Of a stretch of DNA of 64,000 nt, positions 3,902 through 64,000 are shown piece after piece. Below the pieces are notes generated by a model. It did no database searches, had not been told where the DNA came from, and saw only the letters and a list, made by a program, of their open reading frames with translations. The position numbers and the translations under genes were made by a program. Source of the stretch: Candidatus Poseidonia sp. (GTDB lineage: Archaea; Thermoplasmatota; Poseidoniia; Poseidoniales; Poseidoniaceae); contig JAKMEE010000012.1 in the NCBI GenBank assembly GCA_022426155.1, forward strand, positions 1 through 64,000, written 5' to 3'. The number at the start of each line of letters is the position of its first letter. The stretch's first letter is position 1.

Positions 3902-5473
3902 ATGGGTGCATGCCCTTATTGCCGTAGCACAACGCTGCCCAGCGACACGATTTGCTATTCTTGTGGTCGCGTCTTGCCAAGTGGTGAACGTTCCTCGTAT
4001 CGTTTGGAGCAACAATTTAACCGCGGTTCCAAAGATACCACGTACAAAATGGCACAAAAGCCATCCAAACGAGGTATTGTGCAAACGCACATCGGTACTC
4101 GGCGCAATATCATGAAGCGTCAGAAGAACAAAGTTCGAAGTGTTGCTTTGGTTGCTCTAATTGGATTTGTGATGATGTCTCCTGCTGCCCAAGAAGCTGT
4201 TTTTAGCGCCGATGAATTCCTTCTTGATGCTGTGACTGGCTATCACGTCTATCCGGTTGAGGCATCATACACTTTGTCCAAAATAGTGGATTTGCAAAAC
4301 AAGGGTGCAGCTGGATATATGGTTGAAAGCATTCTCATACCTCCCGTGATCACAACGGCGATGGAACATCAATATCAATTTGAGTTCACAGATGGATCAG
4401 AGCCGATACAACCCATGACAATTCAACAAACCAACCAAATTACCGTAGTCGTTGAAGGCTCCTCCATCAACGTACCCATCGATGGACTTCCCAGTAAGAG
4501 CTACGAGGAACGGGTGATCACATCAGGTGGACATGAGGTATGGTGGCCAGGTTTAGGTTCAGATATTAACGAGTGTGAAGTCGCCAATTGCGTATTGGTA
4601 AAAATGAATCTTGCTGCCGGTGCAAGTGGTCGCTTCAGTTTTGACATAGATCTCAGTTCGCATTCGTATTCATGGTGGTCAGATACTCGGGTTGACCCTT
4701 GGATTCCTGGACAAGAATATGGTATTAACTTGGAAAATTCTGGGACATTTGCTGATATTGCCAATCGTGATTCAGGCCTCCGTCAAACTCAATTTGGTAG
4801 TGAATTGTGGTACGAGCGTGATGGGGGGGCAGGTTATGCTATCAACGCCCAAGATGCGCTAGTCACAAGCACTGCAGATTTGATTGCTTCAAGTTTACCA
4901 GAAGGACGGTCCGACAATGCTTACGCCTTTGCCAGAGCTGCATTTGACTTCCTTCATGCCAATGTTGTTTATGACACCGAGGCTCCCAATCCAGCTCGAA
5001 GTGGTCCTGCTTGCTTGGCCAGTGGCCTCGGAGATTGCGACGAGCAAACAAACGCCTTCTTCAGCATCCTCCGGACACGGGGCATTCCTGGATGGTATGC
5101 CTTTGGAGTGCTTGGAGACCCGAAATTCACCGATGTAAAATGGGAAGCCCACGCTTGGGGCTATATTCAACTCCCTCTGAATGACGAATGGTGCGAAGAA
5201 AAGAAGATAGTTCTCTCATCATGCTATGTTGAAGGATCCGTTGATGTGGTCAATAACAAGTGGTTGCTCAATACACCTACTGCTTATGTTGATTGGATTG
5301 AAGGTCAAGGAACAGATGGCACTGATGTCAACAATTACTTTCACCCTGTTCGCGAAGGGCCTTTGGGTTCCGGAGTGGATATTGATCGTGTACGGAGTTA
5401 TGACACCATCGATAGTGCAGATATCTCTGGTGGAAATTTCAAGGTCAATCGTTACGCTGAGAATTTGAAGTGA
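3902..5473 (+). CDS. Zinc-ribbon, transmembrane, transglutaminase-like protein
   Basis: This 523-residue protein combines three parts. Residues 4-21 form a zinc ribbon (C4-x2-C7 and C18-x2-C21). A basic linker precedes a transmembrane helix at about 78-95 (VRSVALVALIGFVMM). The rest is predicted to be extracytoplasmic and contains a transglutaminase-like fold with GDCDEQT (candidate catalytic Cys379) and EAHAW (candidate His417). The region between about 110 and 330 looks beta-rich and is unassigned. Transglutaminase-like domains act as cysteine peptidases, peptide crosslinkers or non-catalytic binders; nothing here decides which. The third catalytic residue (Asp) is not obvious. The stop is one base before the GTG start of trkA, but co-function with potassium uptake is not implied. 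Confidence 0.8.
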   Translation: MGACPYCRSTTLPSDTICYSCGRVLPSGERSSYRLEQQFNRGSKDTTYKMAQKPSKRGIVQTHIGTRRNIMKRQKNKVRSVALVALIGFVMMSPAAQEAVFSADEFLLDAVTGYHVYPVEASYTLSKIVDLQNKGAAGYMVESILIPPVITTAMEHQYQFEFTDGSEPIQPMTIQQTNQITVVVEGSSINVPIDGLPSKSYEERVITSGGHEVWWPGLGSDINECEVANCVLVKMNLAAGASGRFSFDIDLSSHSYSWWSDTRVDPWIPGQEYGINLENSGTFADIANRDSGLRQTQFGSELWYERDGGAGYAINAQDALVTSTADLIASSLPEGRSDNAYAFARAAFDFLHANVVYDTEAPNPARSGPACLASGLGDCDEQTNAFFSILRTRGIPGWYAFGVLGDPKFTDVKWEAHAWGYIQLPLNDEWCEEKKIVLSSCYVEGSVDVVNNKWLLNTPTAYVDWIEGQGTDGTDVNNYFHPVREGPLGSGVDIDRVRSYDTIDSADISGGNFKVNRYAENLK

Positions 5474-61609: not shown

Positions 61610-62497
61610 ATGGTGGCAGAGTTACCTCTAGATGAAGATGGAAACAAAATCGTTCGTATTGGGCATAGCCCTGACCCGGATGACGCTTTTATGTTTCACG
61701 CTATGACTACCGGGGCGTTTCCTACACCTGGTTATCGTTTCGTCCACGAACTACAAGATATCGAAACTTTGAATCATCGTGCTATGAATCAAGAATTAGA
61801 AGTCTCCGCAGTATCCATTCATGCTTACCCAGATATTTCAGAACATTATGCCCTGATGAATTGTGGTGCTTCGATGGGAGAAGGCTACGGCCCCATGGTA
61901 GTGGCAAAGCAAGGAATCAGCTTGGACGAAGTTCGTTCCTCAACCATTGCAGTTCCAGGTTTGAAGACCAGTGCATATCTTGGCTTGCGTTTGGCTTGGG
62001 GTGATTGTGATGTTGAAGTCGTTCCTTTTGACGAGATTATCCCACGCGTTCTTGACGGAACTTATCTGAGCGGACTGATTATTCATGAGGGGCAATTGAC
62101 CTATGTTGAACATGATCTTAACGTTTTGATTGATCTTGGTAAGTGGTGGAATGGACGAACAGAGAATTGGCCCATGCCATTGGGCGGAAATGTAGTACGC
62201 CGCGATCTTGGGCAAACCGTCATGGAAGACATCACAAAGTACACGAAGATGAGTATTGAATTTGCGATACAATCACCTACTGAAGCATTGGAATTCGCCA
62301 AAGCATGGGGTCGAGGAATCGATGATGAAACTAATCGCGAGTTTGTAAGCATGTATGTCAATGATCGTACAATCGACTATCGCGATGAAGGTCGTTCAAG
62401 TATTCGACAATTCATACAAGAAGGCCAAGAACTCGGTTTGATCCGTTCATCATTTGATGTGAATGAAATTGATTTCATTGGTGCACCAGAACAGTGA
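61610..62497 (+). CDS. mqnD: 1,4-dihydroxy-6-naphthoate synthase MqnD
   Basis: A 295-residue enzyme of the same fold as MqnA that acts late in the futalosine pathway. It begins with the family motif G-H-S-P-D-P-D-D-A-F-M-F-H (about 18-30) and has the V-P-F-D-E-I and L-I-I-H-E-G-Q-L-T-Y segments. ATG 61610 is preceded by the AGGAGGGTGG ribosome-binding site and gives a standard N-terminus, whereas the open frame extends farther upstream. The genes mqnE, mqnA and mqnD look like one transcript. Confidence 0.92.
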   Translation: MVAELPLDEDGNKIVRIGHSPDPDDAFMFHAMTTGAFPTPGYRFVHELQDIETLNHRAMNQELEVSAVSIHAYPDISEHYALMNCGASMGEGYGPMVVAKQGISLDEVRSSTIAVPGLKTSAYLGLRLAWGDCDVEVVPFDEIIPRVLDGTYLSGLIIHEGQLTYVEHDLNVLIDLGKWWNGRTENWPMPLGGNVVRRDLGQTVMEDITKYTKMSIEFAIQSPTEALEFAKAWGRGIDDETNREFVSMYVNDRTIDYRDEGRSSIRQFIQEGQELGLIRSSFDVNEIDFIGAPEQ

Positions 62498-62508: not shown

Positions 62509-62997
62509 ATGGTTCATCCTGAACGTCAACCACAGGTGAGCCAATACGGGTCAGTTGACCCAGCTCCACCTTCAAAATCGACTGACATCGAGTCGTTAAA
62601 ATCCATTGTCAATGATGAACATCTTCCAATGTTTCACCGAATGAGGGCGGTTTTTGCATTACGAAATGAGCGCAGTGATGCAGCATGCCTGGCATTGTGT
62701 AGCGGATTTTCTTCAAGCAGTGCTTTGTTGCGTCATGAATTGGCCTATGTCCTTGGACAAATGCAAAATTCAGTCTGTTTACCCACATTGATTGAACGTC
62801 TAGAAGACGATAATGAACATGTCATGGTCCGCCATGAAGCTGCAGAAGCGATGGGAGCAATAGGCGACCGGAGTGTCATTCCAATCCTAGAAAAATTCGT
62901 AAAAGATCCGCTACCAGAGGTTTCTGAATCCTGCATCGTTGCATTGGATTTGCTGGCTTGGGTGGCTGGCTCGGAATTTGAATCGACAGATTGGTAG
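62509..62997 (+). CDS. Half-length deoxyhypusine hydroxylase-like HEAT protein
   Basis: A 162-residue HEAT-repeat protein. Two His-Glu pairs, H76-E77 in L-L-R-H-E-L-A-Y-V-L-G-Q-M-Q and H109-E110 in M-V-R-H-E-A-A-E-A-M-G-A-I-G-D, are 33 residues apart. That is the spacing of the iron-binding HE pairs in each half of eukaryotic deoxyhypusine hydroxylase, and the surrounding sequence is strikingly like that enzyme. The eukaryotic enzyme has two such halves (four HE pairs, about 300 residues); this protein has one and might act as a dimer. It could hydroxylate deoxyhypusine on aIF5A, but that is inference. ATG 62509 is preferred over GTG 62494. Confidence 0.75.
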   Translation: MVHPERQPQVSQYGSVDPAPPSKSTDIESLKSIVNDEHLPMFHRMRAVFALRNERSDAACLALCSGFSSSSALLRHELAYVLGQMQNSVCLPTLIERLEDDNEHVMVRHEAAEAMGAIGDRSVIPILEKFVKDPLPEVSESCIVALDLLAWVAGSEFESTDW

Positions 62998-63056
62998 GTG
63001 CATCCTCCCTCAAGTTCAAAGACTAGATGCCATACGACATTACAGGAAGAAGGGCC

Positions 63057-63266
63057 ATGCCGCACGAACATCTCCGACTCGCCCAAGCCCCAAACGGTGA
63101 ATTAGGTCCTCGTTGCCATGAGTGTGGCATGAGGTTGACCTTCGGAAATGCCATGGTTGTCGACAAGTTCTACATGTGCTGGGACCACTATGTGGCTGCC
63201 ACAGGCGCTGATACTGAGACCAAAGTAGCTCAGGCCGATGAACGCTTCTGGATGAAGGGCGAATAA
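63057..63266 (+). CDS. Small zinc-binding protein
   Basis: A 69-residue protein with a Cys/His quartet (C-H-E-C near 20-23 and M-C-W-D-H near 40-44) that probably binds zinc, and a charged tail. The start ATG 63057 follows GGAAGAAGG; an upstream in-frame ATG at 63027 is also possible. It lies between the DOHH-like gene and priS. No family was recognised. Confidence 0.6.
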   Translation: MPHEHLRLAQAPNGELGPRCHECGMRLTFGNAMVVDKFYMCWDHYVAATGADTETKVAQADERFWMKGE

Positions 63267-63318: not shown

Positions 63319-64000
63319 ATGTCACAAGGTTGGGCGCGATTTGCGCATCGTTTTGGCCAGTACTATCGTACGGCTGATCTTTGGTCGCCTCCTCGGATCA
63401 AAACAAGAGAATGGATGTTCATTCCCTTCGGAGGCGCCCCACCAATTCGGCACAAAGGGTTCGCAACAACAGAATCAGTTCGGACATTTCTTAATGCTCG
63501 GGCAATGCATTCTTGTTTTTACTCTACGGCCTATTGGCAGCGACCTTATGAATTGAAAATGGCCGACAAGGGTTGGCATGGAGCAGATCTCATTTTTGAT
63601 TTGGATGGCGATCACCTACCTGGCGTAACAGACAAAGATTTCCCTGGTATGATGGAAGTGATACAAGAACAAGCATGGTCACTATGGAATGATTTTTTAC
63701 AACCTGAATTCGGTTTCCGGGACGACTACTTGCAAGTAACCTTCTCTGGACATCGCGGATTTCACCTTCATTATCGAGACCCGAAATTTTTTCATCTCGA
63801 TTCGGAGGCTAGAAGAGAATTGGTATCTCATATTCGAGGCGAGGGTGTAGATGTCAAAGGCGGTCTCGCTAGATATCACGATTCTTCGGCAACAGGCTGG
63901 ACCAAACGTCTCAGAAATGGAATGGACGACATGATTCAAACATTACGAAATATCGATACAGGGGGGCCAAATGCATCAGAAGAACTCAAGCGGCTCGAAG
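63319..64000 (+). CDS. priS: DNA primase small subunit PriS (truncated by window end)
   Basis: The first 227 residues of the catalytic small subunit of archaeal primase, which synthesises primers with PriL. Recognised are F-Y-S-T-A-Y-W-Q-R-P, the catalytic aspartates in H-G-A-D-L-I-F-D-L-D-G-D-H (the D-x-D metal site) and the nucleotide-binding S-G-H-R-G-F-H-L-H-Y. The frame runs off the right edge. ATG 63319 is chosen from the frame that carries these motifs. Confidence 0.92.
   Translation, partial: MSQGWARFAHRFGQYYRTADLWSPPRIKTREWMFIPFGGAPPIRHKGFATTESVRTFLNARAMHSCFYSTAYWQRPYELKMADKGWHGADLIFDLDGDHLPGVTDKDFPGMMEVIQEQAWSLWNDFLQPEFGFRDDYLQVTFSGHRGFHLHYRDPKFFHLDSEARRELVSHIRGEGVDVKGGLARYHDSSATGWTKRLRNGMDDMIQTLRNIDTGGPNASEELKRLE

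Follow-up and report, generated by a model that had tools for sequence, protein, structure and literature searches.

A single-half homologue of deoxyhypusine hydroxylase in Poseidoniales and other Thermoplasmatota

In a 64,000-nucleotide stretch of Candidatus Poseidonia sp. DNA (the window), we found a protein of 162 amino acids that is genuinely homologous to one half of deoxyhypusine hydroxylase (DOHH), the iron enzyme that completes hypusine on a translation factor in animals and fungi. The homology is shown by its sequence, its fold, and the conservation and spacing of its predicted iron ligands. Its gene, termed half-DOHH here, lies on the forward strand at 62509..62997, from an ATG at 62509 to a TAG ending at 62997. 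An alternative in-frame GTG lies upstream at 62494, and relatives align at the ATG; dN is well under dS (dN 0.017-0.22; dS 0.13-2.9 where estimable). The protein likely acts as an O2-dependent homodimer on deoxyhypusinated aIF5A, a function in which dimer, iron, substrate, product, and activity are all inferred. Papers up to 2021 state that an archaeal DOHH orthologue is unknown (PMC6105217, PMC5178350, PMC8153317), and half-DOHH is a candidate, from an abundant marine group, for this missing enzyme. Chemical detection of hypusine has been reported for some archaea; in cultured Euryarchaeota, Thermoplasmales among them, amino-acid analyses reported deoxyhypusine with hardly any hypusine or none, and Poseidoniales are not named there. 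No paper linking hypusine to Marine Group II or Poseidoniales was found in the open-access literature searched (subscription papers and preprints excluded), and relative to that literature an archaeal half-DOHH is new.

Among all PDB sequences, the best phmmer match is human DOHH (4d4z; E 8.8e-65), whose N and C halves align separately to the archaeal protein (99.8 and 120.0 bits), the C-half alignment taking in the inter-half linker YxSVDPAPP. The motif SVDPAPP, which matches the linker joining the human halves, is located in the tail of half-DOHH at residues 15-21 (62551..62571, forward strand). Half-DOHH shares 41% identity with the N half of human DOHH and 45% with its C half; between these two halves, identity is 39%. 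The AlphaFold2 model, built from a 38-row alignment, is confident (pLDDT 93.2, pTM 0.86), and a Foldseek search of the PDB ranks 4d4z first (E 7e-11; TM 0.84 by query; 45% identity), followed by alphaRep HEAT proteins, which are artificial, with E values no better than 5e-5. Half-DOHH shares with human DOHH the HEAT hairpin fold, the 33-residue spacing of HE pairs within each half, the SVDPAPP motif, and 41-45% identity per half. In contrast, human DOHH joins two halves in tandem, with eight HEAT hairpins and four HE pairs in one chain, whereas the archaeal chain has one half only and two HE pairs.

Once the 4d4z chain numbering, which is that of human DOHH plus 5, is converted to human numbering, the first HE pair, His76-Glu77 (62734..62739, forward strand), maps to human H56E57 and H207E208, and the second, His109-Glu110 (62833..62838, forward strand), to H89E90 and H240E241. 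A spacing of exactly 33 residues separates the pairs, the same as in each human half. In human DOHH, mutagenesis and the crystal structure identify H56, H89, E90, H207, H240, and E241 as iron ligands, so that the diiron centre draws one His-His-Glu set from each half, and E57, E90, E208, and E241 as side-chain contacts to the substrate (PMC9117371). H76, E77, H109, and E110 do not vary across the 38-row alignment. Both pairs are conserved without change when 54 relatives, most of them Poseidoniales, are aligned, and they remain intact in nine distant homologues from six other Thermoplasmatota families. A chance or generic HEAT match is rejected by a control with the phylum's generic HEAT proteins, where the His-Glu pair is absent at both sites in 30 of 30 aligned stretches and the positions hold mostly Val and Arg, with a single Glu, in the His column. 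Phycobilisome (PBS)-lyase HEAT proteins (CpcE, NblB; PF03130/PF13646) share the HEAT repeat fold, but their family matches to half-DOHH are weak and far under the family cut-offs (17.3-24.5 bits for CpcE/NblB/CpeY vs 300-600), and half-DOHH does not qualify as a bilin lyase by this criterion. Pfam and NCBIfam find generic HEAT and PBS-lyase HEAT repeats only, which would explain why the gene carries no DOHH annotation. The initial annotation had claimed two HE motifs 33 residues apart within DOHH-like flanks, and these are present, with the flanks SALLRHELAYVLGQMQ and MVRHEAAEAMGAIGD both found in the protein; its claim of a one-half DOHH homologue also held, by sequence, fold, and ligand conservation, and the outcome that it named as a refutation, closest relatives among PBS-lyase HEAT proteins unrelated to DOHH, did not occur, the closest solved relative being DOHH.

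A scan of GTDB genome contigs yielded 56 relatives, nearly all from Poseidoniales; its search patterns were exact peptides from the query, so that other phyla, Asgard archaea, and bacteria are not excluded. By profile search, half-DOHH occurs in 227 of 319 Poseidoniales genomes, covering 19 of 22 genera and both families. Among 390 genomes drawn from Thermoplasmatota, nine further clear carriers (137-240 bits) belong to six other families, most of them retaining the DPAP tail motif, and all remaining matches outside Poseidoniales fall below 45 bits. The gene therefore spans eight families of the phylum, two in Poseidoniales and six others. All intact full-length homologues are single halves, and neither the 319 Poseidoniales genomes nor the 390 from the phylum yielded a two-half tandem with four HE pairs in our searches.

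Half-DOHH was lost repeatedly and is dispensable, with the reservation that gaps in the assembly may account for some genomes scored as lacking it. In the window, it is preceded by a gene of the MqnA/D family of the menaquinone (futalosine) pathway (61613..62494, forward strand), a syntenic partner for which no functional link is implied, and followed by the DNA primase small subunit gene (63319..63999, forward strand; cut by the window end), a syntenic marker that verifies losses. Between half-DOHH and primase, at 63027-63263, lies a gene for a 79-residue protein with CxxC and CWDH motifs and no Pfam match, conserved at this position in most Poseidoniales loci. In nine gene-lacking genomes, mqnD and primase are both present and intact where sequenced. 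Genome G095 holds a decayed copy with stops between these neighbours, and in G287 (L096 1-1503) the N-terminal tail MSEDKPDTDEFGSVDPAPPSSKTDV after mqnD is the sole DOHH remnant. The G287 tail continues, in frame, as an unrelated open frame of ~200 residues without a Pfam match; separately, the G170 copy (L080) has in-frame stops and split frames, reflecting either decay or sequencing errors. Deoxyhypusine synthase (DHS) is kept in all gene-lacking genomes tested, and hydroxylation therefore appears dispensable, in parallel with yeast lia1 mutants (PMC8153317).

In the mechanism we favor, each chain would form one HEAT hairpin set carrying one His-His-Glu iron set (H76, H109, E110), with E77 as a second Glu whose counterpart contacts the substrate in human DOHH. 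Two identical chains would probably pair in the manner of the two halves of the eukaryotic enzyme, an inference made without a dimer model, and the pairing may unite two irons in an O2-activating diiron centre, for which there are no iron data. A two-fold symmetric diiron site could form from a homodimer because each human half gives a His-His-Glu set. The putative centre would then hydroxylate the deoxyhypusine made by DHS on the lysine of the aIF5A loop SKPGKHG. A heterodimer with a partner half from a second gene was rejected: no second copy was found in the genome, where half-DOHH is single copy with no partner half seen.

The initial annotation had named aIF5A and DHS as genes to look for, and both are found: aIF5A with the modifiable loop SKPGKHG, and a canonical DHS bearing SWGKM, its catalytic Lys motif. 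Its statement that hypusine would be made if the protein is active remains an inference, as do the diiron site and aIF5A hydroxylation. A second, divergent DHS paralogue (G000:C19:47427-48329, L002) lies beside arginase-family and AdoMet decarboxylase genes. Spermidine synthase (PF01564) was not found in the 89%-complete genome, which leaves the aminobutyl donor unclear. Outside Poseidoniales, DHS is present in nine of nine half-DOHH carriers. DOHH requires O2, and half-DOHH co-occurs with aerobic respiration outside Poseidoniales: COX1 is present in nine of nine carriers there vs a background of 75 of 263 sampled genomes (hypergeometric p 8.7e-6; ~2.5e-4 by family). The family-level value uses an estimated number of families and controls only partly for relatedness, and the co-occurrence gives only indirect support for an O2-activating diiron centre.

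Co-variation of the aIF5A loop with the gene lends suggestive support, no more, to the possibility that aIF5A is the substrate. Among 100 Poseidoniales aIF5A sequences, the reference loop SKSKPGKHG is altered to STSKPGKHG or TKRKPGKHG in 20 of 43 gene-lacking vs 4 of 57 gene-bearing genomes. This test was conceived after 19 genomes had been seen; in the remaining 80, the counts are 14 of 34 vs 4 of 46 (p 9e-4). By our reading of the tree, parsimony places seven of eight loop changes in gene-absent clades, which make up 38% of branch length (binomial p 0.007). An independent-pairs test runs in the same direction without reaching significance (median p 0.25), and one gene-bearing clade also has the altered loop. 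Human eIF5A has Thr at the altered position as well, so this change cannot be read as a strict switch. The loop nevertheless offers a natural experiment on the purpose of hydroxylation.

The origin of half-DOHH is unresolved. A transferred eukaryotic DOHH that kept only its C-terminal half and linker is possible, though less likely than not, and compatible with the proposed function. In favor of such a halved gene, SVDPAPP precedes only the human C half, and half-DOHH is slightly closer to that half (archaeal halves are 44-54% identical to it and 39-47% to the N half). Against it, half-DOHH is nearly equidistant from both human halves and nearer each than they are to one another, it is present in eight Thermoplasmatota families, the tree gives no supported placement with the C half, and a tail retained as linker would be just as expected after duplication and fusion of a half. 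The identities fit a single-unit ancestor that was later duplicated and also a slowly changing halved gene, and a tree comparison of ancestral and transferred origins, with only two eukaryotic halves and long branches, does not separate them (AU p 0.34). The ancestral dimeric form suggested by the initial annotation thus remains undecided, with the dimer inferred only. In a bolder reading, which we are slightly more inclined to doubt than to accept, a living homodimeric half-DOHH makes archaeal hypusine and preserves the state before duplication and fusion; if true, part of the hypusine pathway thought specific to eukaryotes has an archaeal single-unit form. Half-DOHH also suggests a route by which a symmetric two-half diiron enzyme could arise from a dimer of halves.

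Against an aIF5A hydroxylase stand the lack of adjacency to DHS or aIF5A, the weakness of the loop correlation once relatedness is removed, the missing spermidine synthase, and the dispensability of the gene. An alternative, which we consider unlikely, is a DOHH-descended iron oxygenase with another protein or small-molecule substrate, or a monomeric mononuclear iron enzyme. It is favored by the absence of a DHS or aIF5A gene next to half-DOHH in any locus examined, the complete His-His-Glu set within each half, and frequent loss. It is disfavored by the substrate-contact Glu, which is invariant along with the ligands, by the concentration of loop changes in gene-absent clades, and by the dedication of human DOHH to eIF5A (PMC9117371). 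A non-enzymatic, metal-free HEAT-repeat scaffold, supported only by the generic HEAT and PBS-lyase HEAT domain calls, is very unlikely given the four invariant residues, whose pairs are absent from the generic HEAT proteins checked, and PBS-lyase matches far weaker than the DOHH match.

A search for close virus, phage, or plasmid homologues of half-DOHH found none. One apparent bacterial homologue (L052), from the Deltaproteobacteria single-cell genome AH-558-G13, was rejected as its contig shows Poseidoniales synteny and is likely contamination or mislabelling. An IMG/VR viral contig (L098) encodes at 4920-5249 a HEAT-like protein of 109 residues in which the VRHEA motif occurs twice; this distant, HE-bearing HEAT protein adjoins an open reading frame resembling a phage portal protein.
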